Part shown: piece after piece, positions 3,501 through 18,634 of the stretch
Numbering within the stretch: position 1 is the first letter of the stretch
Layout of the letters: every line of letters starts with the position of its first letter
DNA from: Flavobacterium frigoris PS1
Lineage (GTDB): Bacteria; Bacteroidota; Bacteroidia; Flavobacteriales; Flavobacteriaceae
Reading direction: 5' to 3'
Length of the DNA stretch: 64,000 nucleotides
NCBI RefSeq assembly: GCF_000252125.1
Contig: NZ_AHKF01000016.1
Location: 62,001-126,000 of the forward strand
Notes under the pieces: generated by a model
What the model was told of the DNA's origin: nothing
Database searches by the model: none
What the model saw: the letters and a program-made list of their open reading frames with translations, nothing else
Position numbers and translations under genes: made by a program

Positions 3501-3722
3501 AATTCTTATTTCAAAGTTAGAAACATGCAAATTGGGTATTCATTATCAGATAAATTAGTTCAAAAGTCTGGGTTTATAACTAGCTGCCGAGTTTACGCGC
3601 AAGGAGAAAATTTATTTTGGTTTACACCAAAAGGATATATAGGACAAGACCCAGAACGAACAGATGTTAATAGAATACCAGTACCAACTACATTGTCATT
3701 AGGTGTAAACTTTAATTTTTAA
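573..3722 (+). CDS. susC: SusC-like TonB-dependent outer-membrane transporter
   Basis: The 1049-aa protein has a signal peptide ending at SLSAQ (about residue 21). A carboxypeptidase-regulatory-like domain follows (about 24-100), then a TonB-box-like stretch LDDVVVTGY, a plug domain (about 115-230, with RIRG-type and DASASSIYGSRAANGVI motifs) and a beta-barrel ending in an aromatic residue (NFNF). This is the standard SusC architecture and full length. It forms the oligosaccharide uptake pore with the SusD lipoprotein encoded 10 bases downstream. Between a GH32 enzyme and a fructokinase, fructo-oligosaccharides are the likely cargo; that is inferred from neighbours, not from the sequence. Confidence 0.95.
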   Translation: MKHKIILYLILMGSFFSLSAQNIGIKGVVTSSEDGMSLPGASVLVSGTNIGTSTDLDGRFSINNVDKNASIIFTYTGYASQTIQLNGQTTLNVSLKSESLKLDDVVVTGYSKEKKADLTGAVTVVELKPITGQTLSSGNAMQALQGRVAGLTIEKSGDPSGANTRILIRGVSTLGNTDPLYVIDGVPTVRPEVFASLNPSAIASIQVLKDASASSIYGSRAANGVIIVTTKNASKGDVTTVSFSTNVSVLSEKKQRYKMLNALDRGKVLWQASVNDGASPSGGYGEIYNFDWNNDFNNPVLNSVSVQPFVGGDTTVPVGDTDWQDTMYKTGLLINNDLSISGGSDKANAVLNMGYLDNSGMLKYTNYERYSTRLNANFKLFNDKVRFGVNSQFTQSNERSAAKDVGNTLTPSLAISLAPTIPVYTSTGEYAGPIGSGYSDRNNPLLMQYLNRWDNTRKMSLYGNVFTEIDILKGLTFRNSIGMDFSDFKNKDIEPTVSNGFITRSVNSLTVDTNKYSSLTISNTLNYSLKISDHKFGFLIGTESTKTDFTSLYGRAEGFAVESESYFTLAAATGSRTTNGTSTGSRLLSQFGKFNYAFSDRYLASFTIRRDGSSRFGQDNRYGVFPAVTAGWRINNEEFLKNVTAVSNLKLRAGYGEVGNQSIGDNARFGLYEARYGPNQNVYFPDFFNIYYNVGTAYDLNGANTGNLSSGFVSIQSGNSGLKWETTKEINVGLDFGFFGDKLSGSFDYFSRNTEGILIVPPVASAVGEGQQRFVNGASTANKGWELTLGYAETLSNGLYFNVTTNFGATKNKITDLPEEVRAAYPGTAANSIIGHSQFEIFGYKTEGLFQSQQDIDSHATQIASRLGGIKYVDVNSDGVINSDDRTFIGSTLPKLEYGINISLAYKNIDFAIFGSGVAGRIGQDPYIYWNNFVQGRENAGPGTLNAWTPSNTNTDVPSLSLANNDNKVSDYLFRNNSYFKVRNMQIGYSLSDKLVQKSGFITSCRVYAQGENLFWFTPKGYIGQDPERTDVNRIPVPTTLSLGVNFNF

Positions 3723-3732
3723 TTAATTATCC

Positions 3733-5472
3733 ATGAAGAAATATACTAATATAGTTACCATTTGTTTATCAATTTTATTTTTGACATCATGTAGCTCCGA
3801 TTTTTTAGATTATGAACCAACAGGAGTATTATCTTCTGGAAATGTGGCAACAGCAGAAAATGCAGATGCCCTTGTTACCGCAGCATATGCAGCAATAGGG
3901 AATGATGAAATGGTAGGGCCAATAACGAACCAATGGGTATATGGAAGTGTGCGATCTGATGATGCCTACAAAGGCGGAGGTGGTCGTGGCGATGTTGATG
4001 TGATTGATACTTACGAACAATACAATACAACTATTGCAGATTATGGTGACTGGATGTTACCTAGAACATGGACCAATCATTATAAAGCCATTTCTAGAGC
4101 TAATTTTGCTTTGTCAGTTATCAATGCAATTCCAGATGCCGAGTACCCATTAAAAAAAGTAAGGCAAGCGGAATTACGTTTTTTAAGAGCACATTCTCAC
4201 TTTATGCTAAAGTTGTTGTTTAATAAAGTTCCTTATATCACAGAAGAGCTTACGCAAGAAGATATATTAAAGACATCAAATGATCTGTCAAGTGATGCTT
4301 TATGGAATAAAATTGCGGAGGATTTTAAATTTGCTTACGATAATTTAGAACAGTCTCAAGAGCAAGTAGGGAGAGCTGATAAAAATGCTGCAGCTGCTTA
4401 TCTCGCAAAATTAAGTTTATATCAGGCATACAAGCAAAATGATGCGCATCAAGTAACAAGTGTAGATGCTGCAAAATTACAGGATGTGATAGATTATGCT
4501 GACAAAGTTACGGGCGCTTTAGAGCCAGATTACGGATTTGATTTTTTAGACGGACATGACAATGGTGTTGAATCAATTTGGGCTGTTCAGTTTTCAATTA
4601 ATGATGGTACAAATACTGGAAGAGTAAGTTTTGTTACGGGATTGAATTCTCCTCACGGGACACCTTTATATGGATGTTGCGGTTTTCATATGGCTAGCCA
4701 AAATATGGTGAATGCTTTTAAAACGGATTCCAATGGTTTACCATTATTAGACACTTTTAATAATTCAGATATTTTTAATTCAATAACTAATGGGGTTGCG
4801 CCATTAACTGCAGGAGTTACTCTTGATCCAAGAATTGACCATACTGTAGGAGTTCCAGGAAGACCATTTAAATATAAAAACACTTTGAATGCTTCAGGCG
4901 ATATGATTTATAATTTTAGTTGGGCTAGAGATCCAGGTGTTTATGGATATTTTGGAAATATGAAAGAGCAACAATCTCCTGACTGTTCTTGTTACGTAAA
5001 AAACGGACCATTTGTAGGTACTTCTAAGAACGTTGATTTTATTAGATATGCAGATGTTTTATTATTTAAAGCAGAAGCATTAATTCAATTAAATAGATAT
5101 GCAGAAGCATTGCCTTTAATTAATCAAATTAGAGCTAGGGCAGCTGCAAGTGGATCTATGCCATTAGCTGCAGGGGCATCAAATGTATATAAAGTACAGC
5201 CATATGTTTCTTTTCCTTCAAAAAGCTATGCGATGAAAGCACTTATGTTTGAAAGACGTTTAGAATTTGGAATGGAAGGACCGCGATTCTTTGATTTAGT
5301 TAGATGGGGAATTGCTGAACCTGTTTTGAATGCTTATCTTACTACAGAGAAAACAAAAAGGGATTTTCTTGCCAATGCTAAGTTTACATCAGGTAGAGAT
5401 GAGTATTATCCAATACCTCAGAGAGAAATAGATTTTACAGCAGGTTTGTACAAACAAAATCCTGGTTATTAA
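3733..5472 (+). CDS. susD: SusD/RagB-family glycan-binding lipoprotein
   Basis: The 579-aa protein has a lipoprotein signal with lipobox FLTSC (Cys20), followed by SSDF, an acidic context like the surface-export signals of Bacteroidota lipoproteins. TPR-like helices (SRANFAL, AELRFLRAHSHFML) form the N-terminal scaffold. The C-terminus has the family signature FERRLEFGMEGPRFFDLVRWG and ends with the usual YYPIPQREID...NPGY. It forms the lid over the SusC pore and captures oligosaccharide at the cell surface. A perfect hairpin 35 bases after its stop ends this transcription unit. Confidence 0.95.
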   Translation: MKKYTNIVTICLSILFLTSCSSDFLDYEPTGVLSSGNVATAENADALVTAAYAAIGNDEMVGPITNQWVYGSVRSDDAYKGGGGRGDVDVIDTYEQYNTTIADYGDWMLPRTWTNHYKAISRANFALSVINAIPDAEYPLKKVRQAELRFLRAHSHFMLKLLFNKVPYITEELTQEDILKTSNDLSSDALWNKIAEDFKFAYDNLEQSQEQVGRADKNAAAAYLAKLSLYQAYKQNDAHQVTSVDAAKLQDVIDYADKVTGALEPDYGFDFLDGHDNGVESIWAVQFSINDGTNTGRVSFVTGLNSPHGTPLYGCCGFHMASQNMVNAFKTDSNGLPLLDTFNNSDIFNSITNGVAPLTAGVTLDPRIDHTVGVPGRPFKYKNTLNASGDMIYNFSWARDPGVYGYFGNMKEQQSPDCSCYVKNGPFVGTSKNVDFIRYADVLLFKAEALIQLNRYAEALPLINQIRARAAASGSMPLAAGASNVYKVQPYVSFPSKSYAMKALMFERRLEFGMEGPRFFDLVRWGIAEPVLNAYLTTEKTKRDFLANAKFTSGRDEYYPIPQREIDFTAGLYKQNPGY

Positions 5473-5506
5473 GGTTGAAATTTGTTTTGATGTTTGTTTA
5501 AATGGT

Positions 5507-5540
5507 GTTAAAGGCAAGATATATTCTTGCCTTTAACTTT
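5507..5540 (+). terminator. Intrinsic terminator after susD
   Basis: A perfect 13-bp inverted repeat (arms 5507-5519 and 5525-5537, GTTAAAGGCAAGA and its complement) encloses a 5-base loop and runs into a T-rich stretch. It separates the GH32-susC-susD unit from the fructokinase gene. Confidence 0.85.
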
Positions 5541-5561
5541 ATAATATTTTGTGGGATAGGT

Positions 5562-5569
5562 TACTTTTG
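5562..5569 (+). promoter_or_regulatory. Candidate -7 promoter box of the fructokinase gene
   Basis: TACTTTTG fits the Bacteroidota -7 consensus TAnnTTTG and lies 33 bases before the fructokinase ATG, just after the susD terminator. A convincing -33 TTG at the usual distance is not visible, so this is moderate evidence. Confidence 0.4.
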
Positions 5570-5602
5570 TACTTATTCTTAATTTTTTAATATGGTTTTA
5601 TT

Positions 5603-6499
5603 ATGAATGTAAAGTACACTTTAAGTGCTGTTTGTTTTGGAGAAGTTCTATGGGATGTTTTTCCAACACATAAAAAAATTGGTGGAGCGCCATTGAATGT
5701 TGCTTTGCGAATGAATTCTTTTGGAGTAGAAACGACTATGATAAGTCGTGTTGGTGCTGATGAAAATGGAGAAGATATCTTGTCTTTTTTAAATAATCAA
5801 GAAGTCACTACTGATTTAATTCAGGTAACCAAGGAATATAAAACGGGTGCGGTTAATGTAATGATTAACGAAAAAGGAAATGCTTCCTATGATATATTGT
5901 ATCCTTCTGCTTGGGATAAAATTGTAGTAACAGAAATGATGGATAAGGTAATTTCTGAAGCAGATGTTTTTGTATTTGGAAGTTTAGCATCCAGAGATGA
6001 AGTTTCTAGAAAAACTTTGATTTCTCTTTTGGACAAGGCAAAATATAAAGTTTTTGATGCAAATCTAAGAGCTCCATATTATACCACTGAGGTACTAGAA
6101 GAGCTTATGCAAAAAGCAGATTTTATTAAATTGAATGATGAAGAGTTGCGTGAAATAAGTAGAGAGTTAGGTTCTCCGTACAATTCATTTGAACAAAATA
6201 TTAAATTCATTGCTGAGAAAACCAATACGAAACAGATTTGCGTAACCAAAGGAGAATTTGGGGCTGTTTTATATTATAATGATAAGTTTTATTACAATAG
6301 TGGTTACTTTGTAAAAGTAGTAGATACGGTCGGTGCAGGGGACTCCTTTTTAGCATCGTTAATAGTACGATTATTAAGGGGGAAATCACCTCAGAAATCA
6401 TTAAATTATGCTTGTGCAATCGGCGCTTTGGTAGCTGGACAAGAAGGAGCAAATCCACAGATTTCTGAAAAGGAAATTAAGAAATTCATGATGATTTAA
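5603..6499 (+). CDS. PfkB-family fructokinase
   Basis: The 298-aa cytoplasmic sugar kinase is predicted to phosphorylate fructose with ATP. The N-terminal PfkB signature GGAPLNVALRMNSFG (about residues 27-41) and the C-terminal signature DTVGAGDSF (241-249, catalytic Asp247) are intact, and the length is normal for the family. Its position directly after a GH32-SusC-SusD set makes fructose the likely substrate. It sits after a terminator and has its own -7-like box, so it is probably expressed partly independently of the transporter genes. Other ribokinase-family substrates cannot be excluded from sequence alone. Confidence 0.87.
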   Translation: MNVKYTLSAVCFGEVLWDVFPTHKKIGGAPLNVALRMNSFGVETTMISRVGADENGEDILSFLNNQEVTTDLIQVTKEYKTGAVNVMINEKGNASYDILYPSAWDKIVVTEMMDKVISEADVFVFGSLASRDEVSRKTLISLLDKAKYKVFDANLRAPYYTTEVLEELMQKADFIKLNDEELREISRELGSPYNSFEQNIKFIAEKTNTKQICVTKGEFGAVLYYNDKFYYNSGYFVKVVDTVGAGDSFLASLIVRLLRGKSPQKSLNYACAIGALVAGQEGANPQISEKEIKKFMMI

Positions 6500-6585
6500 T
6501 AAAAATAAATCAATTAAGAATAATTAAAAAATCTCTATTATAGACTGAACCTAAAAGGTAAGACAAGTTTGTAATTAATTTAAGC

Positions 6586-6618
6586 AAAATGAGCTCGATA
6601 GTCTATCGGACTCATTTT
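6586..6618. terminator. Bidirectional terminator-like hairpin between convergent genes
   Basis: Two 16-base arms (6586-6601 and 6603-6618) pair at 14 positions around a central base, with A-tracts on one flank and T-tracts on the other. It lies between the convergent fructokinase gene and the minus-strand small lipoprotein gene and could terminate both. Confidence 0.65.
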
Positions 6619-6733
6619 GTTTAAATACATCAAGAATACTTCTTTTATTTTAGTTTTGCGGGTAATAAAAGCCAATCATTTATAAAATCAGTTTCCTGAT
6701 TTAGACTAATGTCAAAGGTTTTAACGGAGAAAA

Positions 6734-6862
6734 TTATTTTACTAATACAAAATCTCCTTGCGGGACACTTCTACAGGGTAATGAATCTGCTTTGCATCCT
6801 GAGAATAAAAAAAGAACGATTAGAGCTCCGAAAATCTTCAAGCTTTTTTTAATTGTTTTCAT
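6734..6862 (-). CDS. Small lipoprotein, 42 aa
   Basis: Reverse-strand translation from the ATG at 6862 gives a 42-residue protein. It has a Lys-rich start (MKTIKKSLK), a hydrophobic core (IFGALIVLFLF) and a lipobox FSGC (Cys23), then only about 20 residues (KADSLPCRSVPQGDFVLVK). Its ATG lies 2 bases after the stop of the upstream 305-aa gene, so the two are likely translationally coupled. The pattern fits a real tiny lipoprotein at the end of the operon. I recognise no family; the mature part is too short for an enzyme, so an accessory or structural role is possible but unproven. Confidence 0.65.
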   Translation of the reverse strand: MKTIKKSLKIFGALIVLFLFSGCKADSLPCRSVPQGDFVLVK

Positions 6863-6864
6863 TG

Positions 6865-7782
6865 TTATTTTTCTTTTAATATAATGTTTATTAGCTTCCA
6901 TTCATTGCCTATTGTTACTATATAAGAGTCCGTTTCAAGATCTGAAAAAAGAGCTTCTCCATTTGTAATCTGTTTGGTTAAAATCGTTTTCCCATTAGTT
7001 GTTAGTACTACTGAAGCGCCTTCTTGTACAGAGACCACTTTTATCACACCATCTATATCGCAAACGGCATCTTTTTTATAGAACAAGGTTGGAGTACCAG
7101 TTTGATTTATTACAACCGCATAATTACTGAGACTTGATTCATCTTCAGACAGCACTTCGTATGTTATTGTTGAAGAATAATTATCTGTAACCTCCCCTGA
7201 TTTTTGTACAATTCTGTTTTTAAACAATTTCGCACCTGTACTCAAGGTGAATACTGGTTTTAGTGCAGTTAAAGGGTAACGGTCATACAAAGTGATGTTG
7301 ATTTTACCACTGTTAATAACTGATGAGACACTCTTAGTGTCCATAAAATCAAACGTTAGAATTTCGGACTTATCATTAAGGGCAGGTTCTGAGATGCTAT
7401 AGGATTGAAATAAGTTTCCTTTGTGCTCGTTTACTTCAAACGTTACTTGCTTGCTGACAACCGCAATTTTGTTAGTTGTACTATCATACAATTTGAAGGA
7501 TATCGTTTCTCCTTGTGAATTAGAAAACACGGTGAGGTAGGCATAATAATTTGCTTCGCCAGCAACATAAGTAACGCCACTTATTCCTCTGCAGCTACTG
7601 CCAACAAATGCCGCAACTTTGTCATTTTTGCCAGTTAATGGTTTTCCGTCCACATTTAGTTTTGCGACAAAAGTCATTGTATATTGATAGTCATTCTCAT
7701 TCACTGACCAAGTGGGAGCCTGTGCGAATAACACTTGGAAAGAAAAGTGAAATAGTATAAATAAAAATGCTGTTTTTTTCAT
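6865..7782 (-). CDS. Secreted protein with a module shared with the adjacent giant protein plus a DUF5018-like domain
   Basis: The 305-aa protein has a signal peptide ending at VLFAQ (about residue 20). Residues about 30-125 form a beta-rich module (KVAAFVGSSCRG, YAYLTVFSNSQGETISFKLYD) that resembles two modules near the C-terminus of the 2857-aa neighbour. Residues about 140-225 (ILTFDF, LTALKPVFTLSTGA, ITYEVLSEDES) resemble the DUF5018 immunoglobulin-like fold common in secreted Bacteroidota proteins. The end (SYIVTIGNEWKLINIILK) loosely resembles the last strands of a T9SS sorting domain but lacks its PNP motif. It lies 60 bases after the giant gene on the same strand. No enzymatic motif is visible. 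Confidence 0.72.
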   Translation of the reverse strand: MKKTAFLFILFHFSFQVLFAQAPTWSVNENDYQYTMTFVAKLNVDGKPLTGKNDKVAAFVGSSCRGISGVTYVAGEANYYAYLTVFSNSQGETISFKLYDSTTNKIAVVSKQVTFEVNEHKGNLFQSYSISEPALNDKSEILTFDFMDTKSVSSVINSGKINITLYDRYPLTALKPVFTLSTGAKLFKNRIVQKSGEVTDNYSSTITYEVLSEDESSLSNYAVVINQTGTPTLFYKKDAVCDIDGVIKVVSVQEGASVVLTTNGKTILTKQITNGEALFSDLETDSYIVTIGNEWKLINIILKEK

Positions 7783-7842
7783 AAAAAAGATATTTATTCC
7801 GGAAAAGGATTCTTTAGATAGAGCGTTTCCGGAATTATTATT

Positions 7843-10800
7843 TTAGTTTTTTATTATTTTTTCTATAATTATTTTACCACCAATATGTAATTGAAGAAGA
7901 TAAACACCAGAAGGTATCGCAGGATTTATTTTCAATACGGCGGCATCTGAATTTATTTTAAAAGTATCTTCAAAGACGATTTGACTGAGCATGTTATAAA
8001 TTAATATTTTAGCGTCACCTCTCTCTTTGGTTTCGATTGCTATTTCAAGTTCGTGATAAAAAGGATTAGGGAAGACACTTATTTTTTCTTCCGCTAAACC
8101 AATTAGAAGTGGATTAGCAACACTACCCAAGATAGCATCCGTAGAAAAAACAATCGATTTGGTTGTAGCTTGGGCGCTATTATTTTTACCAATGTAGGCT
8201 GTAAGTGTTTCTGGTTGATTACCATAAATTGTTATGAAAGCCAGATTCGTACCTTCAATATTTTGAATTATAGTATTTCCTCTTAGTTGGCCAGTCTCAT
8301 TGTAAAATGCTAAATTTTCAAATCCGTTGGGTAATTTTACTACAGCACTCATCGTATTTGGAAACTGCGCGTATTGGTTAGACAATATTTCATCTTCTGT
8401 ACCGCTTGTGATTCCAGCCTTTTGAGCGCTCATTTTACCAGTTGATTGGTTTAAGTATTCCGGATAAGTAAACTTTTGGGCTGTATTAGTTTTTAACATA
8501 TAGCCTTCTCCTGCTTTTAAATAGGATAGTGATCCTTTCCATCCAATTGACGAACTGTATATAGCAAATAAAGACTGAGATTTAATAAAATCTCCTTCAC
8601 TGGCATTAAGGTTAGCTAGTGCATCTGTAACCAATACGTTTTTCGAAACAACAAAAGGCAGCCAATTCCAATTTTGGCTTAAATCAAAAAACCATGTATT
8701 TAAATCAACAGGAACACCTTTAATGTTTAATTTTTGTGCCGCTGATAGTTTTATTTTGTACATTTTATTGTTTGAAATTCCACCATTACTAGATATGGTT
8801 CCAGACCATCCACTTTCAGTTGGATTTGAGTTGACCTGGTAGGCATCAAATAATGCAGGAGCATTTGATTTTATCAAATCCGAAGTATTTAGAACAAGGG
8901 GTTTTGTAAGCGCATTTAAATTCCCGAATCGGGCATCAGTTACGTTAAAAGAGGTCCATGTCCAGCCTTGGTTAAAGGATATTTGCTGACCAGTTACTTC
9001 GGTATTGTTAAAAATAGCGGGACTGGTATAAGTTCCAATAACTTCATCTGCCATATAAGGGATAGTGAATTCGTTGTTTAAAGTGGCTTCTTTTAATTTT
9101 CCATCGGAAGCATCCCAAATATAAAATGAAATATTTTCTCCGCTAACTTCATTACTATAAATCGTCAGATATACAAGGTATTCCTTAAAACTTGCATCAT
9201 ATATAACACTTGCTTTACCGCGAACTTCGCCGTTTACTGTAGCCACCACCCTGTCATAAAGATCATCTGTAAAAAAATTAGCTAATTTTACTTTTCCGAT
9301 GATACTCATTGATTGGCTAAACTTGCTGGGATCGAGTTCTAATACAGGTTCTTTTTCTAATACCCTTAAATCCAATTGGATTTTTTCGTTATAACCATAA
9401 TTGGTAGCTAGAGATAAAATAGTATTGTAATTTCCAATTGCTAGATCACGGTCAACGGTTACCGTTAATGTCATCTTTGTGTTAGGGGCAATGGTTCCTG
9501 AATTTGTTGATGATGTTAGCCAGTTTGGCAATTCAACAGTGTAAGGCTGTGTTGTTCCGCCTCGATTGATTATGGTAATATCAAATGAGAGGTTTTCATT
9601 GGTTCTTTTTATTAAATTCACCACATCAGTATGTCCTTCAACAAACCATTTCATAGGACTTTTATTAATTAGGGCGCTCCAGGTAACTGGTGATTCTTGC
9701 CTATTGTCAGCCATGTCATTAAGGTTAGAAACCGTAATGTAAGCTACTTTTCCTTCTATACTTGACCAGTTTGTAATTTGTGGATTTAGTGCTATTTGAT
9801 CACCATTTATTACCGCATTGACAACAATGGATTCTGTAGGACGGAATGACTTAATAGCTGGGGTTTCATCAGAAAAAGCAAGTGGTTTACTGTTTAATGA
9901 AGCATAACTACTTGTTTTTTCGAACGTATTTAAGGGATAATAATATTTTGGCCCAAAAGCATTCGCAGTTTCCGGTTTATTAAAGGTGGAATATAATAAT
10001 AGCCCTGTACTGTTAAAATCGAGTTCGTTGTATCGATCTGATTTTATTTGTTCGGCATTTCGGGCTGTTTGCCAAAGACACAATTCGTCTAGTAAACCCA
10101 CATAATTTTGGTCTATGCTTAAAGGACTGATTTGACCTCGGGCACCAATGAAGATATTACTCGAAGTAAATCCTCCTAAATCATGACTTGCAAAAGATTC
10201 TACCTGATTACCGTCAATATACATTCTGACAGAACCATTTCTGGTTAAACTTAATGCAACATGATGCCAGCTGTTATTATTTACTTTAACAGTTCCAAAT
10301 GGAAATGTTTTTGCTTCTGCCTGCAGTTCCATGTTACCATTAGTATTCAGATTTATTGCCCATTTATTTCTATATCCATTGCTTTCTATAGCATCAGTAG
10401 CATCTCCTTTACCATTAGAAAATAATGTTGCAGCGCCAGTTTGATTGGTTTTCATCCAAAAGGAAAGTGTAGCATCCATTTCTTTAGAAATAACTACTTT
10501 GGCAGCATCTGAGAGAGTCAGATAATTAGTCCCATCGAAGTTGTAGGCAGTACCTTTTGGAGTAATATCCCAATTGGTATTAGTAATAACAAGATGTTTG
10601 TATCGGGCCAAATCATTTGCAATTAACCCATTTCCTTCGTTTATAGGCCAATATCCTAAAAGATCTGTTTCGTTACCGTTTAACACGTTATTCATATTGG
10701 CTACCGCTGCTTCTCTTGAGACACTGCGTTTCCAGAATCGCATATCGTGTACGTTTCCTTTGAAAGTGTTACCTCCTAATATGATAGGATTCTCATTAGT

Positions 10801-13800
10801 GAAGTTTAATTTGGTAGTGAGCGGTTGCACTTTTCTTTCTAAGTCATTTTCGATGATTCTCAGGATATTAGCTGTAGCATCATAAGAAAGGGTGTAATGG
10901 TTGAACGTATTGTCTTTGGTAATCATTGTACTAATACTTTGACCACCAATAGTGTATTTTAAATCACTATCTATCAATTCAATTTTAATTCCATTACTTT
11001 GGTTTAATAGTATAGATGTTCCAGTCGGACTTGAATTTTTTAACCAAAATTCGATACTAAAATCGCCAGTGGTGATCGCTGGTTTATTAATAGTGGCTGT
11101 ATTACTTGAACCGTTAAAAGCTAGAGAAACTTCATGTTTTACTGGGCTTTGGTTTTTTTGAACTAAAAATTCAAATTTTGTGACAGTACCATTGGTTTTA
11201 ACGGGTTCATTAAATTGTAATGTTATATCATCCCCTAAACCTAAAATACCGTTTTTTGGTGTTGGTGTGCCAAAAAGTACAGGAGAAGTAAGATCTACTT
11301 TCCCTTCTATAATAGCAGATTCAAAGGCAGTTTGATTATTGCAACTAGTACGAGCTCTTAGTTCATAACTTCCATTAGCTAAACCTAATCTTGCAATGTC
11401 CCAAGCATAATTTAATTCGGTACCTACTATCAATTCGATATTAGTATCTCCACCTGTAAAGGCAATATCATAATCTTGTTGATTTTTATAATAGGTTCTT
11501 AATCCAATCCAGTTGGGAGTGCCTTTTAATCGGTATTCTAAGTTGATTTTTTGGAAACTAGCAAAACTGGTATTAAAATCACCCAGTTTTATATTTACTG
11601 GTTTCGTTTCGTTTCCATTGTAGGCAGTATTTCTATTTAATAGCCAGTTGTTTGATGGTGCCATAATAGCTACTGGGGAACAAGCAGGTACAAAAGTTGC
11701 CGATACTAAAACACTAGCTGTTGCATTTTGATCACAAACTGATTCTAGAGATACTTTTATGTTTTTATAGTCAAACTGGTCTTGTTTAACTTTTTTAAGT
11801 GTCATGGTATAGGCTACGGTTTTACCAGCGGGAATATTTACAATAGTTCCGTTAGGCTCAATGTTGATTGCCGCATTATCTGGATTGGTCGCTTGGTCAA
11901 CATAAAGTTTAAAACTAGCATCTTTATTTGCAGTGCTTGTATTACGCAATTGAAGTACAAATTCTGCATTTCTACCGTCAAATATTCCTGCAAGATCTGC
12001 TGCTTCAACTGTTATTTCTGGTTTTTCTAAAGCAATGGTTGCTATTGTTAAAGGCACGCGACTCGGTTCAGGCAAATCTACAATTGTAGCTGATGGACTA
12101 GTAGCATTGGGATGCGTTGGGTTATAAAAATAGGATAGTTCTGCTCCCTCGTATGGACACGAAGTTTGTCCTCCTTTAGTAATAAAAATGGGACCATTTC
12201 CATCAAAAGCATTAATTACATCTATACTGAATGTATTATTTGAATCACCATCTTTTAGTGTATAACTAATGTTTGTAGTATCTTCAGAATTGTTTTCACT
12301 CGAATTGCCAGAACCAGACCCATTACTGGTGGTACTTTCCATAGCAAAACCAGCTCCATTAAATTCAGCGCCAACAGCTGCTACAAAAGATTGATCTAAT
12401 TGTAATTCGTATGAATAGGTACTGGCACTTAAACGCCCTATTTGATACCCTTTTGTCAATTCTCCAATACCAGAATCGAATGAAACATTTTCAAAAAACG
12501 TTTTATTTAATAAATCTTTAAGTTGCTTAGCCGATTCAGACAACGTATTTGTCGCCGGATCTTTCAAACTTTCTATAATGGCGTTTAAGGAAGACTTTAA
12601 TTTGTCTTTATCAGTAAGCGCTTGGTATTTAGTTAATTCATTATTTAAAATTATTTTTCTCCAAAGATTGATAGACGAGTTGTAAGCGCTTTTAGAAAGT
12701 ACACCATTCTGGTTTTCAATAAGGACCCCCGATTCAATTTGGTTAATAATATCTAAAGTTTGAGGTATAATTTCAGTTAAGATATGATGCTGCGTATACA
12801 TAAATACCGTTTTTTCTGGTGACTCATTAAAATACATTGCCTTATTTACTTTAGGATATAGTTTTGTAGCTGCAGTTTGAGTGCCATTAACATAAGTTAC
12901 ATCAATAGTAGGGCTTGAATTAGCTGTTGTTGAAGTCACTAATTCATCATAAGTTCCATAAAATTGGTTAGCTGAAGTCCCTATATATAAATCGGCATCA
13001 CCACCAACCCAATCCGGATTATCACTTGTTGAAATGGTTTGGTTAAAACTATAAGTAGTACTTACGCTTTTTCCGTTGCTAGACGATTGTTGCGTACTTA
13101 CACCGGTTGTTAAATCGTTGGTGCTTTCTGTCTCCATTACGGGCCCTGCTAGGCCTCCTCCTAAACTAAGTGTGAAGCCAAGAGAAACAGTGGTGTCTAA
13201 ATTGCTTCCATTACTGGAGCTAGATGTGTTTTCTTTAGAGAAACTAAAAGAAGAACCCTTTTCTATGGTTGCAGAACTTCCTGATCCCGGCGGATCTCTT
13301 AATATAATATCTGGCAATTGTGGGCCTGCAGTAACAAACGTTTGTGAACCATCCGCAACTCCTCCTAATATAATTCCGTCTTTGTTATAACCCGTTAACG
13401 GATAATCAATTCCATTTGATCTGTATTTTAAATCAATAGTTCTCTTAAAACCAGTTGCTGCATCTGTATTGGGTGTTCCCCCTTTAAAACTATAGGTTAA
13501 TATGCTTGGATCTGTAGTCGAAACTACTACTTTCTCACTGTTTTCTAAAGCCAAATTATTAGTAGCAATTAAAGTGCCTCCTTCAACCGGAACGGTATTG
13601 ATTACAGGTGCGCTAGCACTTTTATCATAATTATAATACAGTTCCTGACCTTGAACCTGAATGCTGTAATCGCCAAACTGGGTATAAATTGGAGTTTTTT
13701 GTTGTGCCGATACCGTGTAGGTAATTCCGCCAGCGATTATTGTTTTATCAGAAGTTTGGCTTAATACCTTTTGCGTCGGGTTTGCGATATGAGCAAATTT

Positions 13801-16416
13801 CAGCACTTCCTGATAGGGTTGTCCTGTGATAGTATCTTTTCCCTGAATAAATGTTGGATATTGTAATCCTTTTATAGCCGTAAAATTGATAGTTCTGTCT
13901 GCGTCTAAAATTGGAGTGTTATCCGGATTTTTGCCACTGGTAAATGTTAAATCATTTTTAGATAGCATGTAATTTAAGGGCAATAAAGAAACACGGTATT
14001 CCCCTGTTTCAGTATTGGTTAAAAAACTGCTTTTATATTCTGGAGTAACACTGTTGGCACCCGTTGGTAGGTAACCGAGGGTTAATTGTGCTATTCCAAT
14101 ATTATTTTCAGAAGTATAAATTGTAGATCGGCTTACTCCGTTTGCGTCTTTATATGGATACGCTTTTTTTCCATCGTAACCAAAACCAATTTTCCTATCG
14201 GCTTGTACTGTTCCCCCCACAACTCTACCAACTACAATCACTTTAGTATTGTCAATAAAAGTAATGGGTTCATCACGGTCTTCAAAAAAGTCTTGATAAG
14301 TATTGGTATATGTAGTCACTCCGTTCGCTACAGAAGCCTCTTTTGCAGGATATCTTCCGTCAAAATCAAAAGTATGTCCACTTTTGGTTATGCTAATGGC
14401 GTGTTTTCCTATAGGTACTTCTATAGTAAATCGACCATTAATATCCGTTTGAATGGCTACATTATTGGCGTCAATTGCTTGTACATTATCAATGCTTACA
14501 AAGGCTCCTGGAACAGGTATTTGCGCATATCTATGCAGTTTTGTGATTTTCCCCGTAGCATCTTTTTCTGCCCAATATTCTCCTTTTTGGTATTTTACAG
14601 TCCCTTTTACATAGGCATTATATACCTCATCATCCTTAATATCTCCTGTTATTGGTGCATCAGAAGTAGTAGGAAAAACACCTCTACTATCATAAACAGC
14701 AATCCCTTTAAATACAAAAGAAGAATTATCAATAAAGTCTATTTTATTTACCACTGTAGAGCCTACGCCTAAAAAGGCTAATTGCTGCGAAGGATTAAAT
14801 TCATGCTTTCCAAGTGAAGGTACAATGGTAAAAGAATCGCCATTACCACTATAGGGAACAGCTGATATTACATAATTACCAAACTCATCTGTTACACCTA
14901 AAACACCCAATTGACTGCTAGTTGGGATGTTGTTGCCTGTATTGTCAAATGTAGGTGTTTGAGCAGTGGTTAATAATGAATTGCTCAGTTTGGCATTATT
15001 CCCATGGAAATTAAAGCCAGTATGGGCCATGTCATACGCATAATCGCCAATTTTCTCGTTAGCACTGATGTAGGTGTTTAGAAATGCTTCATTTCCGTTT
15101 AAATAACGACGGTAATCTCTTTTGATTTGGGAAGGACTCAATGCTGTTTCCCATACCCTAAATTCATCTAAATAGGCATTTGCGCCTCCACCCATCTTAA
15201 AGTGTGTCCAAGTCTGGGGTTGTCCAGTAGGAGAAGTATTCAAATTTACACTACGATGTAAAATGTCAATTCGCATTGCAGGCAGTCCCTTTTTGGCTAA
15301 AATTCTCGTCATTTCAGCTTTGTAACCAACTTCAATAAATCGTCCATTAATGTAAAATTTAGGAACGTCATTATCTCTAATTACTACACTAAAATGGGTG
15401 AAAACTTTAGTTATATTGCTTATTGGGAGTAAAATATCGTCTCCATTATTATCAATTTCGCCACTTGGGTAATAATCAAAAGCAGCAACATATGCGGCCC
15501 CCAAGTATAATTGGACGTAGTGATTAGCCGAATAATTGACCTTAAAAGTTAAAGATTGGTCGGCATTGCTTTCTAAAGTGTATAAAGATATTCCTGAGCT
15601 TGCATCAATTTCTGGCTTTACCCAAGCTTGTAAGGTGATAGAATCTTTCAAACTTTGATTCAATCGGGGTACAGAGGCATAGCCGCTGGCAGGAATTTTT
15701 AATGAACTCCCAATACTTAACTGACTGCCCGTTGGGTTAGCTACTACCATTACATCTTTCACCGGATTTCCGCCTGTAAAAGTGATGTTACCAGTAACTA
15801 CACCTGTTGGATTTCTATAACCTATACCTGTAATGTAAGTTGAATATAGAATCTCTAAACCGTCAATTTCAACACCTTTAGCTGCTATTTTATAGCGATA
15901 CAGTTTACCGCCTTCTATATTGGTATCTACAAAGGTTCCCGCGTCTGCAGCAAGTGTTTTTAGTGATTTTCCCCAATTTGGATTTGGACTGTCAATATCC
16001 TCCGTTCGGTATACCGATATACTGATAATTTTTTCTCGGTTCATTTTCACATCCCAGTTGATCTCAATTCTATCACTGAAATACCCTTTAGATACTGTGA
16101 AGGCATCTTCTGAAAAAGTATTGTATCGATACCGAATTCCCCAAGGAAAACCTAAATCTTTCGTGTAATTTTGTGTAGGGTTATTGGTATATGGCTTATC
16201 CGTTACCCCCATATAAGGCATTCCCACTTGTAAACTTACCTTTTGTATGGTGAAAGTTTTATTTACCCCATTGACCTTTTGGGTTAAGGTGTGGTTAAGG
16301 TTTTCTTTTGCAGAAGCAGCAGCACCAATTACAGTGGCAACACCTTTTTGTTCCTGACCGAATAGCGTGCTATAGCTTAACAACAGTAAGCATAGCGCAT
16401 AAATGTATTTCGTCAT
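7843..16416 (-). CDS. Giant secreted LamG-domain protein with T9SS C-terminal sorting signal
   Basis: The 2857-aa protein has a signal peptide (ending at TLFGQ). In order it shows an Fn3-like region (about 125-190), a LamG/concanavalin-like domain (about 227-440, ending in YLDEFRVWETALS), a carboxypeptidase-regulatory-like domain (about 633-685) and a Ser/Gly-rich stretch (about 1042-1122). Two more LamG domains follow (about 1763-1925 and 1956-2144). Near the C-terminus are a beta module (about 2362-2467), two Trp-rich tandem modules (about 2474-2563 and 2570-2656; QGWTWTSF and QNWNWLPF), a second copy of the beta module (about 2685-2769) and a type A T9SS sorting domain (about 2778-2857, starting ISVFPNPF). 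This indicates outer-membrane export by the type IX system and a surface or adhesive role, possibly glycan binding through LamG. No catalytic site was identified. Confidence 0.85.
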   Translation of the reverse strand: MTKYIYALCLLLLSYSTLFGQEQKGVATVIGAAASAKENLNHTLTQKVNGVNKTFTIQKVSLQVGMPYMGVTDKPYTNNPTQNYTKDLGFPWGIRYRYNTFSEDAFTVSKGYFSDRIEINWDVKMNREKIISISVYRTEDIDSPNPNWGKSLKTLAADAGTFVDTNIEGGKLYRYKIAAKGVEIDGLEILYSTYITGIGYRNPTGVVTGNITFTGGNPVKDVMVVANPTGSQLSIGSSLKIPASGYASVPRLNQSLKDSITLQAWVKPEIDASSGISLYTLESNADQSLTFKVNYSANHYVQLYLGAAYVAAFDYYPSGEIDNNGDDILLPISNITKVFTHFSVVIRDNDVPKFYINGRFIEVGYKAEMTRILAKKGLPAMRIDILHRSVNLNTSPTGQPQTWTHFKMGGGANAYLDEFRVWETALSPSQIKRDYRRYLNGNEAFLNTYISANEKIGDYAYDMAHTGFNFHGNNAKLSNSLLTTAQTPTFDNTGNNIPTSSQLGVLGVTDEFGNYVISAVPYSGNGDSFTIVPSLGKHEFNPSQQLAFLGVGSTVVNKIDFIDNSSFVFKGIAVYDSRGVFPTTSDAPITGDIKDDEVYNAYVKGTVKYQKGEYWAEKDATGKITKLHRYAQIPVPGAFVSIDNVQAIDANNVAIQTDINGRFTIEVPIGKHAISITKSGHTFDFDGRYPAKEASVANGVTTYTNTYQDFFEDRDEPITFIDNTKVIVVGRVVGGTVQADRKIGFGYDGKKAYPYKDANGVSRSTIYTSENNIGIAQLTLGYLPTGANSVTPEYKSSFLTNTETGEYRVSLLPLNYMLSKNDLTFTSGKNPDNTPILDADRTINFTAIKGLQYPTFIQGKDTITGQPYQEVLKFAHIANPTQKVLSQTSDKTIIAGGITYTVSAQQKTPIYTQFGDYSIQVQGQELYYNYDKSASAPVINTVPVEGGTLIATNNLALENSEKVVVSTTDPSILTYSFKGGTPNTDAATGFKRTIDLKYRSNGIDYPLTGYNKDGIILGGVADGSQTFVTAGPQLPDIILRDPPGSGSSATIEKGSSFSFSKENTSSSSNGSNLDTTVSLGFTLSLGGGLAGPVMETESTNDLTTGVSTQQSSSNGKSVSTTYSFNQTISTSDNPDWVGGDADLYIGTSANQFYGTYDELVTSTTANSSPTIDVTYVNGTQTAATKLYPKVNKAMYFNESPEKTVFMYTQHHILTEIIPQTLDIINQIESGVLIENQNGVLSKSAYNSSINLWRKIILNNELTKYQALTDKDKLKSSLNAIIESLKDPATNTLSESAKQLKDLLNKTFFENVSFDSGIGELTKGYQIGRLSASTYSYELQLDQSFVAAVGAEFNGAGFAMESTTSNGSGSGNSSENNSEDTTNISYTLKDGDSNNTFSIDVINAFDGNGPIFITKGGQTSCPYEGAELSYFYNPTHPNATSPSATIVDLPEPSRVPLTIATIALEKPEITVEAADLAGIFDGRNAEFVLQLRNTSTANKDASFKLYVDQATNPDNAAINIEPNGTIVNIPAGKTVAYTMTLKKVKQDQFDYKNIKVSLESVCDQNATASVLVSATFVPACSPVAIMAPSNNWLLNRNTAYNGNETKPVNIKLGDFNTSFASFQKINLEYRLKGTPNWIGLRTYYKNQQDYDIAFTGGDTNIELIVGTELNYAWDIARLGLANGSYELRARTSCNNQTAFESAIIEGKVDLTSPVLFGTPTPKNGILGLGDDITLQFNEPVKTNGTVTKFEFLVQKNQSPVKHEVSLAFNGSSNTATINKPAITTGDFSIEFWLKNSSPTGTSILLNQSNGIKIELIDSDLKYTIGGQSISTMITKDNTFNHYTLSYDATANILRIIENDLERKVQPLTTKLNFTNENPIILGGNTFKGNVHDMRFWKRSVSREAAVANMNNVLNGNETDLLGYWPINEGNGLIANDLARYKHLVITNTNWDITPKGTAYNFDGTNYLTLSDAAKVVISKEMDATLSFWMKTNQTGAATLFSNGKGDATDAIESNGYRNKWAINLNTNGNMELQAEAKTFPFGTVKVNNNSWHHVALSLTRNGSVRMYIDGNQVESFASHDLGGFTSSNIFIGARGQISPLSIDQNYVGLLDELCLWQTARNAEQIKSDRYNELDFNSTGLLLYSTFNKPETANAFGPKYYYPLNTFEKTSSYASLNSKPLAFSDETPAIKSFRPTESIVVNAVINGDQIALNPQITNWSSIEGKVAYITVSNLNDMADNRQESPVTWSALINKSPMKWFVEGHTDVVNLIKRTNENLSFDITIINRGGTTQPYTVELPNWLTSSTNSGTIAPNTKMTLTVTVDRDLAIGNYNTILSLATNYGYNEKIQLDLRVLEKEPVLELDPSKFSQSMSIIGKVKLANFFTDDLYDRVVATVNGEVRGKASVIYDASFKEYLVYLTIYSNEVSGENISFYIWDASDGKLKEATLNNEFTIPYMADEVIGTYTSPAIFNNTEVTGQQISFNQGWTWTSFNVTDARFGNLNALTKPLVLNTSDLIKSNAPALFDAYQVNSNPTESGWSGTISSNGGISNNKMYKIKLSAAQKLNIKGVPVDLNTWFFDLSQNWNWLPFVVSKNVLVTDALANLNASEGDFIKSQSLFAIYSSSIGWKGSLSYLKAGEGYMLKTNTAQKFTYPEYLNQSTGKMSAQKAGITSGTEDEILSNQYAQFPNTMSAVVKLPNGFENLAFYNETGQLRGNTIIQNIEGTNLAFITIYGNQPETLTAYIGKNNSAQATTKSIVFSTDAILGSVANPLLIGLAEEKISVFPNPFYHELEIAIETKERGDAKILIYNMLSQIVFEDTFKINSDAAVLKINPAIPSGVYLLQLHIGGKIIIEKIIKN

Positions 16417-16467
16417 GTGTAGGTTTTATTAGGATAGTAAGAAATAGGATAGAAAAGCAGACTATGA

Positions 16468-17385
16468 TTATATTTTGATAATATAGTTTACTCCGTAGTT
16501 GATGGGGCGGGTTTCTGTGCCACCTGTATTGTTTGTATTTCCTGAGGCAGTATGAGTATGGGCTCCATCATATCCAATGGTTTTAGAATTTACTAAATTT
16601 ACTTCTTCACCGCTACCGTTATTATTATCTGTGCCACCAACAGTATACTTACCATCCATACTTAATACTCTATTAAAGTTGCTGTTGTCATTATGATTGT
16701 GGCTACCTGCAGAATTCGTGGGTAAACTAGCCGCATGCAAATGCGATTTTAGATCATCCTGCTGGATTGCTTTTAATTCAGGACCTTCATAACAACCATA
16801 AGCGTTACACTGGCGTCCAATACCACGTAAAAAAATTCCTTTTAAGTCTGGGGTGTTGGTACTGCCACCCAATAGTGCTTTTAAATTTGCTGTAATAACC
16901 ACATCAAGTGAAGCAAAAGAACTTCCATTACAAAGCAGCCATCCATTAGGTGCTGTCGTTCCTATAAAAGGCATTATAGAGCCAGTAGGAACTCCGTTTT
17001 GCGCAAAAATAGCATAAGGAACTGCTTGTAATTTTTCATTAGAAAAAACCACGCTGCCTTGCACTACTTTTAAATAAGTAGATTGGCTACTAATTTTACC
17101 ATAAATTGTTTGATCTATATCTAATACATAAGAGAATACACCAAAATTATCAGTTTTTACATTGGCTGATTTAGTAAGTATAACTTGCTCACTATTACCG
17201 GTACCTAAATAGTATACAGTAAATACCAGTGCTAATTGATCAATGTTAGCTATCGCGGCATTGGTTTCGTCACGTGCAATTCCTTGGATAGACATTCCTG
17301 AAGAAGTTACATTCGTTTGTGCATTGACATTTGTAGTTAAAACAATAGCGATAAAAGCGAAGAGAGTTAGGTAGATTTTTTTCAT
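16468..17385 (-). CDS. Secreted phage-tail-collar-domain protein
   Basis: The 305-aa protein has a signal peptide ending at NVNAQ. Residues about 28-130 resemble the N-terminal domain found in many secreted Bacteroidota tail-fibre-like proteins (SIQGIARDETNAAIAN ... KLQAVPYAIFAQNG). From about residue 132 it carries a phage tail collar domain: GSIMPFIGTTAPNGWLLCNG, then LGGSTNTPDLKGIFLRGIGR, and an ending ETRPINYGVNYIIKI typical of short tail fibres. His-rich clusters (SHLHA, SHNHN, HTHT) could bind metal as in tail fibre tips. No phage genes surround it; it leads the operon with the giant LamG protein 51 bases downstream, so it is more likely a surface adhesin subunit than a prophage remnant. 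Confidence 0.8.
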   Translation of the reverse strand: MKKIYLTLFAFIAIVLTTNVNAQTNVTSSGMSIQGIARDETNAAIANIDQLALVFTVYYLGTGNSEQVILTKSANVKTDNFGVFSYVLDIDQTIYGKISSQSTYLKVVQGSVVFSNEKLQAVPYAIFAQNGVPTGSIMPFIGTTAPNGWLLCNGSSFASLDVVITANLKALLGGSTNTPDLKGIFLRGIGRQCNAYGCYEGPELKAIQQDDLKSHLHAASLPTNSAGSHNHNDNSNFNRVLSMDGKYTVGGTDNNNGSGEEVNLVNSKTIGYDGAHTHTASGNTNNTGGTETRPINYGVNYIIKI

Positions 17386-17497: not shown

Positions 17498-18634
17498 ATG
17501 TTTTTAGATCTTATATCGTTATTCGTCGGTTTTTTATGCATTTTGATAGTATGTTTTATGATTTTTAATAGAATTGAAAATCATAAAACGAATACTTATT
17601 TTGTGCTTATTTTGTTTATTGTAGGCATACAAAGGTTTGTTTACAGCATTGAATTTTTAGGTCTTATAGAAAATTCATATAACCCATTAAAGAAAAAATT
17701 ATCTCTAGCTTTGTATATTGTTCCTATTTATTTTTTATTCTTTAGAAGATTAATTAAAGGGTACGATCGACTTAAAAACGAATTTTTACACTTTATTTTA
17801 CCAACATTGTTTGTTTTTGTAAATATGGTATATGAAATTAGCTATCTATTCTTTTTTTTCTACTCTACGTTTTATTTTATTTTGATTCTTCTTCTTTTCA
17901 AGAAGTTTATATATCGAAAGAACACATCAATGCTTGAGATAATTAGTTATCGCGAGATTAAGACCTGGTTATTATTGATGATTAGTTTAACTTTTTTATT
18001 ATTCGTTTATTCTAATTATTTTTTATTTAGCGGAACGAATCCTAAAATGAATTTAGGTTCATTTTATAGGTATTCATCATTACTGTGGTTATTGCTGCTT
18101 ATTTACATGTTTAAAAATCCAATTGTAATATTCGGAGAGCACTATTTGTTGAAAAACATGCATTTAAATGAGTCAACAGAATTTTTAGTATGGAGTAGAA
18201 AGCTTTTAAAGCCAGTGGAAGAAAAAGACAAAGTAGTGTATACTACTATTTCAAAGAGAATCGATTTTATTATTTCGGATATTCAAATTCTTCAGAAATC
18301 AGTCCCTATGTTGACTACGACAACTTTTACCGCAAGTACTTTGTCTAAAAAATTAATAATACCAAAACGTCATTTAGAGTTTGTTTTTAAGTATTATTGT
18401 CATTATTCCATTAATGATTTTAGTAATCTAGTAAAAATAACTTATGCATTATCACTCATTAAGGAAGGTTATCTTGATAGCTACACAGTGGCCTCATTGG
18501 GTGAAAAATGCTTGTTTAATTCCCGATTTACATTTTCAAAAAATTTCAAAAAATTTATCGGGATTTCGGTGAGTGATTATATAAATAGCACTGTTAAATC
18601 AAAGCTGTTTTCTGTAAGAGCTGTTGTATCATAA
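17498..18634 (+). CDS. Membrane-anchored AraC-type transcriptional regulator
   Basis: The 378-aa protein has an N-terminal half of about seven hydrophobic segments (residues about 3-205, rich in Phe, Leu and Ile). A cytoplasmic C-terminal part carries an AraC-like double helix-turn-helix; the second helix pair (VASLGEKCLFNSRFTFSKNF, then FIGISVSDYINS) matches the conserved AraC pattern. Proteins of this layout occur in Flavobacteria and are thought to sense through the membrane domain. Divergent placement 112 bases from the collar/LamG operon suggests it controls that operon. The ligand is unknown, and a remote target is possible. Confidence 0.75.
   Translation: MFLDLISLFVGFLCILIVCFMIFNRIENHKTNTYFVLILFIVGIQRFVYSIEFLGLIENSYNPLKKKLSLALYIVPIYFLFFRRLIKGYDRLKNEFLHFILPTLFVFVNMVYEISYLFFFFYSTFYFILILLLFKKFIYRKNTSMLEIISYREIKTWLLLMISLTFLLFVYSNYFLFSGTNPKMNLGSFYRYSSLLWLLLLIYMFKNPIVIFGEHYLLKNMHLNESTEFLVWSRKLLKPVEEKDKVVYTTISKRIDFIISDIQILQKSVPMLTTTTFTASTLSKKLIIPKRHLEFVFKYYCHYSINDFSNLVKITYALSLIKEGYLDSYTVASLGEKCLFNSRFTFSKNFKKFIGISVSDYINSTVKSKLFSVRAVVS

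Follow-up and report, generated by a model that had tools for sequence, protein, structure and literature searches.

A Bacteroidota operon combining a phage-type tail-fibre tip protein with a giant predicted type IX secretion cargo and an interchangeable, predicted anchor pair

Introduction

The tail-fibre tips of phage T4, gp12 (1ocy) and gp37 (2xgf), form trimers and bind metal through pairs of histidines (HxH). Among secreted adhesins, SprB of Flavobacterium johnsoniae is a large protein that is delivered by the type IX secretion system (T9SS) and whose outer-membrane partner, SprF, is encoded adjacently, while RemA of the same species is a type A T9SS cargo with a lectin domain, according to the RemA passages of PMC12618676. 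Proteins of type B are held by PorP-like barrels, as the relevant passages of PMC9143113 and PMC12618676 describe them. Here, we report on an operon that brings elements of these systems together, found in a stretch of 64,000 nucleotides of Flavobacterium frigoris PS1 (NZ_AHKF01000016.1, positions 62,001-126,000 of the forward strand), which is referred to as the window throughout.

The operon resembles SprB/SprF in having a large, predicted T9SS-delivered adhesin and an outer-membrane partner encoded adjacently, and one variant of it even uses a type B domain and a PorP/SprF protein. It differs in that the giant of the window carries a type A domain, that the partner is a mini-lipoprotein encoded after a domain that we call K, and that a phage-tail tip gene has been added. 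With RemA, the giant shares the combination of type A cargo and lectin domain, but a tip gene, a shared-module protein and a lipoprotein go unmentioned in the passages of PMC12618676 on RemA. The tip gene itself has the T4 arrangement, in which a Collar domain is followed by an HxH-bearing tip that ends in a YIIK-like strand, but it is bacterial, has a different N-terminal domain, lies in an operon with a T9SS giant and showed no phage structural family in ten of its neighbours. On balance, and with the reservations gathered below, we consider it probable that this is a dedicated Bacteroidota surface-adhesion operon, in which a T9SS-delivered lectin-like adhesin would bear a trimeric tip of phage type and be held at the membrane by a tether of its own.

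A conserved gene set

Four genes follow one another on the minus strand, in the order of transcription collar, giant, shared-module protein and lipoprotein, with gaps of 51, 60 and 2 bases:

16468..17385, minus strand: gene 1, collar protein of 305 amino acids (Pfam Collar, PF07484, 33.2 bits against a cut-off of 24, 4.9e-8)
7843..16416, minus strand: gene 2, giant of 2857 amino acids, with strings of immunoglobulin (Ig)-like domains, LamG/ConA-like lectin domains and a type A T9SS C-terminal domain
6865..7782, minus strand: gene 3, shared-module protein of 305 amino acids (third-gene profile)
6734..6862, minus strand: gene 4, lipoprotein of 42 amino acids with the C-terminus QGDFVLVK, an FSGC lipobox by sequence reading and a single further cysteine

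The overall span, the order and the single strand had been given in an initial annotation of this DNA and were correct on re-reading; its name for the third protein is also justified, the third-gene profile matching the giants too.

A named genome collection scanned with an alignment of the giant gave 237 encoding stretches, the best 80 of which were retained and make up 72 loci (L051-L122). These loci are best matches only, picked with the giant as sole query, and the collar and third genes were identified in them by profiles. Upstream, where 56 loci are testable (complete giant start and more than 700 bases before it), the collar gene lies directly before the giant in 55, the exception being L121; downstream, where 60 are testable (complete giant end and more than 600 bases after it), the third gene is present in 59, the exception being L065. 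The linkage is not circular, since neither the collar nor the third gene had a part in the choice of loci. Gaps range from -4 to 136 bases between collar and giant, and from -1 to 171 between giant and third gene. The operon occurs in records of Flavobacteriaceae, Sphingobacteriaceae, Cytophagales and Chitinophagaceae, including Flavobacterium, Polaribacter, Aquimarina, Winogradskyella, Lutibacter, Pedobacter, Mucilaginibacter, Cyclobacterium, Aquirufa and metagenome-assembled genomes of Chitinophagaceae. Composition, order and conservation of the gene set are thus observed directly: the operon is real, widespread in Bacteroidota and conserved, and the co-occurrence across genomes in this order, for which the initial annotation had proposed to search, is found.

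The same co-occurrence (55 of 56 loci) refutes the idea that gene 1 is a stray prophage gene sitting beside unrelated secreted proteins, to which we leave next to no probability. Phages are a familiar source of collar proteins, with 874 matching phage records, but the top-ranked of these spans residues 68-305 at 28% identity, and a PHROGs search at 1e-5 found no phage structural family in ten neighbouring proteins, in agreement with the earlier remark that no phage structural genes lie nearby. The whole genome has a single Collar match.

Closer to the window, the nearest locus by best segment is that of F. degerlachei DSM 15718 (92%). A search of 60 relatives with the whole giant matched four genomes, including the window's own, among which two genomes of the same genus have full-length orthologues (71% and 44%) and the fourth matches in a LamG region only. 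The middle of the giant was found in seven of 397 genomes of the family, again including its own, one of the seven being distant (27%). A collar profile matched 19 of the 397, and eight of these hold ten full-length collar genes (E < 1e-70). Seven of the ten belong to an operon whose giant can be read, with a second collar preceding one of them in tandem, while three adjoin an unreadable stretch (N) followed by the third gene and are not counted in favour. In the remaining 11 genomes all matches are partial, most of them to the collar domain or the N-domain alone, and no giant was seen beside the match in the two that were viewed (L049, L050). The N-domain and the tip domain therefore occur elsewhere, but every full-length collar relative found in these genomes with readable surroundings sits in the operon. 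One of the two genomes viewed, which is of the same family, encodes a 238-residue collar protein lacking the N-domain beside several large proteins (L049:8505-19001).

Distances between homologues, compared over 48 loci, are correlated for collar and giant (0.87), collar and third gene (residues 1-230; 0.80) and giant and third gene (0.86), with none of 2000 permutations as high in each case. The genes travel together, and host phylogeny alone could yield such values.

Some loci depart from the simple layout. The operon is found twice in tandem at L080:9114-28556 (collar, giant, third gene, lipoprotein, collar, giant), the second copy being cut by the end of the locus. Two gene-1 paralogues in tandem precede a single giant in L103, L071, L116 and L117, and three do so in L176, as if several heads served one stalk. 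The giant is split into two frames at L100:10001-18591 and L107:464-8644, for which decay, frameshift and sequencing error are all possible. Apparent collar-giant fusions (open frames of 3170 and 3372 amino acids) were dropped as an artefact of reading across unreadable (N) bases.

A phage-type tip domain, probably exchangeable

Gene 1 consists of a signal helix followed by two parts, an N-terminal beta-sandwich (residues ~28-131) and a tail-fibre tip (residues ~132-305):

16993..17304, minus strand: N-terminal beta-sandwich, proposed to be a docking domain; distant loci retain it next to other tips
16471..16992, minus strand: tail-fibre tip (profile matches, HxH pairs, VIA-align to 1ocy)

By its profile matches, the C-terminal half belongs with the phage tail-fibre tips of the T4 gp12/gp37 kind. 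Gene 1 matches phrog_1800, tail collar fiber, in PHROGs (1.8e-26), and a profile built from 59 homologues matches the short tail fibre 9cuy (4.5e-17), gp12 (2.6e-10) and gp37 (8.5e-10). The histidines H215 and H217 are invariant in all 59 homologues and H276/H278 are kept in at least 90% of them; a metal-binding HxH site and a trimeric tip may be proposed by analogy with gp12 and gp37. A single-chain AlphaFold2 (AF2) model (pLDDT 79.6) has the signal helix, a beta-sandwich at 28-131 and an extended tip, and VIA-align ranked 1ocy first for it (root-mean-square deviation 1.8, 66 residues aligned, 30% identity). The best Foldseek match to the model, a weak one (E 1.4e-3, template-modelling (TM) score 0.22), is C24 of Bizionia argentinensis JUB59 (6ov6), a protein that comes from a Flavobacteriaceae host, as gene 1 does. 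C24 is reportedly a protein of a temperate phage, putatively the tip of its long tail fibre, unlike the operon-borne gene 1.

Distant relatives may indicate how the two parts are used. Among 395 genomes sampled across the phylum, 12 have the core of the giant, namely the window's own, one of the same genus with a canonical operon and ten distant ones, nine of which were viewed at one place each (several hold further places). A gene with the collar N-domain lies just upstream of the giant in four of the nine (L176, L177, L178, L181), and what follows this domain differs. Gene 1 of L177 and L181 ends in Peptidase_S74 (2.1e-15 and 9.4e-15); that of L178 retains a collar-like tip (Gp10_C, 27.4 bits against a cut-off of 27, with Collar below cut-off); and the three paralogues of L176 have a C-terminal part without Pfam family, two of them giving weak tail-protein matches in PHROGs. 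A constant N-domain with differing ends, at least two of which are tail-fibre parts, is as expected of a docking domain with a replaceable head.

The same observations bear on a different role for gene 1, as a periplasmic trimeric chaperone for assembly or secretion of the giant rather than its tip, which we regard as unlikely but worth weighing. Such a role would suit a protein in which no T9SS signal is recognised, as well as the two distant loci that end in Peptidase_S74, which Pfam calls a chaperone of endosialidase. Peptidase_S74, however, acts within its own chain and not on other proteins, and the alternation of C-terminal parts on one N-domain, together with a tip region that varies among homologues while H215/H217 stay fixed, fits receptor binding better. 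A tip of the phage receptor-binding type could also serve defence, the collar acting as a decoy that occupies receptors used by phages, but no PADLOC family was found at 1e-3 in the four proteins searched (defence genes were not sought beyond these), and we consider this very improbable. For gene 1, the predicted receptor-binding head of an adhesin is the preferred role.

The giant

The following features of gene 2 are relevant to its predicted function:

15337..15687, minus strand: LamG/ConA-like domain 1, residues 244-360 (Laminin_G_3, 1.3e-8)
10711..11115, minus strand: LamG/ConA-like domain 2, residues 1768-1902 (Laminin_G_3, 2.1e-12)
10042..10536, minus strand: LamG/ConA-like domain 3, residues 1961-2125 (Laminin_G_3, 6.3e-20)
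9052..9339, minus strand: copy of the shared module, residues ~2360-2455 (limits taken from alignment)
7846..8076, minus strand: type A T9SS sorting domain, residues 2781-2857 (TIGR04183, 5e-9; PF18962, 4.3e-7)

The type A domain scores 30.6 bits with PF18962 (cut-off 27) and 36 bits with TIGR04183 (cut-off 23), and the genome encodes the T9SS translocon protein SprA as well as five PorP/SprF matches. The giant therefore qualifies as a type A cargo in a genome with SprA, and its export through the T9SS to the surface or the medium is predicted. Residues 760-1590 form chains of Ig-like domains according to Foldseek and VIA-align, with a TM score of only ~0.1 against a library of viral structures. 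Within this part, residues ~1464-1579 (window 11680-12027) resemble, at tied Z values of ~10-11, complement proteins as well as HAP2 of plants and algae and Fsx1 of archaea, which we take for a common Ig arrangement rather than a fusogen. Residues ~1030-1430 (window 12127-13329) are highly conserved, with LRDPPGS, long strands, a helical insert and GGxTSCPYEG, and no Pfam family covers this conserved part.

It is this part, the most conserved of the giant, that could be read in favour of a secreted attack or predation complex directed at other cells, in which the collar would aim the giant much as receptor-binding tips aim phages and contractile injection systems. One LamG region matches the Pfam clostridial neurotoxin binding domain, which is non-catalytic (18.0 bits on the whole protein against a cut-off of 23.8, and 25.0 bits on a piece of it), but Laminin_G_3 is far stronger on that piece (72.3 bits), as expected if the match arises because a lectin-like fold is shared. 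Since, in addition, no enzyme or toxin family exceeds the Pfam cut-off on the whole giant and the anchor genes described below argue for retention on the cell, we judge an attack function improbable and continue to treat the giant as an adhesin.

A predicted interchangeable anchor pair

The most informative part of the operon, absent from the initial annotation, may be the third and fourth genes, which by their sequences would constitute an interchangeable anchor pair. Ends of third genes were classified with our own profiles in those 58 of the 72 loci in which the end is complete (two more are cut), giving 45 K domains, in the same loci by profile and by motif, five type B domains, six type A domains and two ends in which nothing was recognised. 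In the window, the relevant feature is:

6868..7080, minus strand: C-terminal K domain of gene 3, 71 residues (FYKKDAVC...INLKE), with a cysteine kept in 45/45 loci

The end of the third protein predicts the next gene. After all 45 K-domain proteins comes a cysteine-bearing lipoprotein with a terminal motif near QGDFELV (39 found by pattern and six by eye, the latter with a looser motif or extra residues after it). These lipoproteins come in two forms, mini (37-62 residues) and longer (127-155 residues), and have exactly one cysteine beyond the lipid-bearing one (44 of 45 by script, the last by eye). After all five type B proteins comes PorP/SprF, which Pfam confirms in the five loci (the NCBIfam PorP model is below cut-off in the two that were checked); the type B domain itself is above the Pfam or NCBIfam cut-off in L079, L122, L121 and L087 and below it in L107. 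Neither a motif lipoprotein nor PorP/SprF comes next in the eight other classified loci, among which one match to the lipoprotein pattern was dropped by eye (a frame of 1112 amino acids). This pairing of third-protein C-terminus and fourth gene is, like the gene order, a direct observation. Two further arrangements are seen: in L065, which has no third gene, a PorP/SprF gene comes right after the type A giant, and in L177 and L181 the third gene encodes 137 residues, in which the shared module follows a start resembling a lipobox and would be lipidated directly. In L101, among the eight others, a different barrel-like protein, below the Pfam cut-off, comes next.

In five Polaribacter loci (L099, L108, L109, L112, L113), two third-gene paralogues stand in tandem. 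The second has a type A-like end in four of these loci, and neither a lipoprotein motif nor PorP/SprF follows the pair.

The swap with PorP/SprF, whose barrels hold type B proteins, argues for gene 4 as an anchor or shuttle. In gene 3 of the window, Pfam and NCBIfam (up to E 1) find no T9SS domain, type B included, and there is no PorP/SprF gene beside it, its neighbours being the 42-residue lipoprotein and then a convergent kinase-like gene. The window lipoprotein would be reduced to a lipid-anchored peptide of ~20 residues ending in QGDFVLVK. Strong matches to the K domain (E 8e-11 or better) occur in only eight of the 397 family genomes, all with the operon and one each (19 further genomes have weak matches), which points to an operon-specific anchor domain. 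For SprF-GldK, the portion of PMC12635249 concerned describes an internal Cys-X-Cys pair attacked by a lipoprotein cysteine, and a disulfide between outer-membrane protein and lipoprotein. By analogy, it is possible that an intrachain cysteine pair of the third protein is opened by the lipoprotein thiol.

PorP/SprF partners, in five of the 58 classified loci and in the one without third gene, also raise the question of whether this is a gliding adhesin system, in which the gliding track would carry the giant along the cell with the collar as contact head. Precedents exist in SprB, a gliding adhesin carried by SprF (PMC12635249, in the portion on SprF), and in RemA, the type A lectin, which PMC12618676 names as involved in gliding. 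The window branch, however, has no PorP/SprF gene at the operon, the tails of the five PorP/SprF proteins lack, by eye, the Cys-X-Cys tail reported for SprF in that portion of PMC12635249, and SprB fused to type A domains is immobile or released, according to the fusion results given in PMC12618676. Gliding is thus, in our estimation, hardly a likely function, and we retain a tether as the favoured role of genes 3 and 4.

Regulators and neighbours

Upstream of the operon lies a candidate regulator:

17498..18634, plus strand: divergent AraC-type gene, proposed operon regulator (PF00165, 28.4 bits against a cut-off of 26.6)

Its product has a long hydrophobic N-terminal half besides the DNA-binding domain. 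In a survey of 65 loci, within 4.5 kb, an AraC-type gene was found in 16 (15 members being divergent upstream), and homologues of the window gene (41-71% identity) are divergent upstream in 12, with a 13th at 25%. A sensor kinase is present in 14 loci (upstream in 13) and a LuxR-type response regulator in 13, one kinase and one regulator (L019) having been checked with Pfam. The two kinds of regulator, AraC-type and kinase with LuxR-type, are unlike each other. Besides these regulators and the lipoprotein, no neighbour is shared by more than five loci.

Beyond the other end of the operon, a long hairpin-forming sequence with an inner palindrome (AAAATGAG...CTCATTTT; window 6580-6620; read by eye and unscored) lies before the convergent kinase-like gene and looks like a terminator shared by the two. 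Window 573-6499, convergent to the operon, has a SusC/SusD-like pair (by appearance) and a sugar-kinase-like gene, and is possibly a small sugar-uptake locus.

A model and its weak points

We infer the trimer, the tip role, the export of the collar and the tethering from sequence, and the following model is to be read as a prediction. The giant would be delivered by the T9SS to the cell surface, form a stalk with its Ig-like domains and bind glycans with its LamG/ConA-like domains. Gene 1 would trimerise through its tail-fibre tip around a histidine-bound metal and dock on the giant by its N-terminal beta-sandwich, serving as receptor-binding head. Gene 3 would bind the giant by the shared module and tie it to the outer membrane, (i) in the window branch by a K domain held by the gene 4 lipoprotein, perhaps with a disulfide between the conserved cysteines, and (ii) in other branches by a type B domain together with a PorP/SprF barrel, by a type A domain or by being lipidated itself. 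The operon would be switched on by a regulator of its own, and its products would probably serve in sticking to other cells or surfaces.

Several points weigh against this model. No T9SS signal is recognised on the collar protein by Pfam or NCBIfam, although the model places it at the surface; the structural match to gp12 is modest (Z 6.4) and tied with unrelated rows, and the AF2 model is single-chain only, with a pTM of 0.46. LamG/ConA-like domains do not prove glycan binding, and correlated distances indicate shared inheritance, not contact. The set is not invariable, as the one family genome with a distant giant (G061) encodes a third gene without a collar and a gene-1-like neighbour was not found in five of the nine distant loci (L173, L174, L175, L179, L180). 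No kinship of the K domain with type A or type B signals was detected (hhalign gives 10% against type A and 0.9% against type B, compared with 68% between the two types), and, with strong matches limited to the eight operon-bearing genomes, it was rejected as a general sorting signal. Further cysteines are present in 42 of the 45 K-domain proteins, 40 of which have them within the shared module as part of a CRG motif, because of which the K cysteine may pair within its own chain.

Conclusions

This gene set is best interpreted as a non-phage surface apparatus, which belongs with the T9SS adhesin-anchor systems and brings two new elements, a tip and a tether. In open-licence literature in PubMed Central, none of the titles and abstract openings listed presents tail-fibre proteins as T9SS adhesins, and no account of this gene set was found, in line with the earlier statement that no described system of this exact composition was known; the word 'tail' is absent from PMC9950754, on two colony-spreading genes. 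More tentatively, and as a possibility that falls short of being probable, the operon may encode a surface appendage with exchangeable phage tips and a third outer-membrane tethering route, besides type A/lipopolysaccharide (LPS) and type B/SprF, in which a lipoprotein would hold the K domain tightly, possibly through a disulfide.

If this is true, bacteria would have adopted several versions of the tip by which phage tail fibres bind receptors, and would use them as heads of surface adhesins that they deliver by the T9SS. The operon would then offer (i) a means of testing directly to what environmental Bacteroidota adhere, (ii) a way to learn how a protein without T9SS signal reaches the surface and (iii) a way to learn how T9SS cargo is tethered without LPS linkage or SprF barrel, the natural swap between lipoprotein and PorP/SprF making the anchoring testable by exchange of parts.

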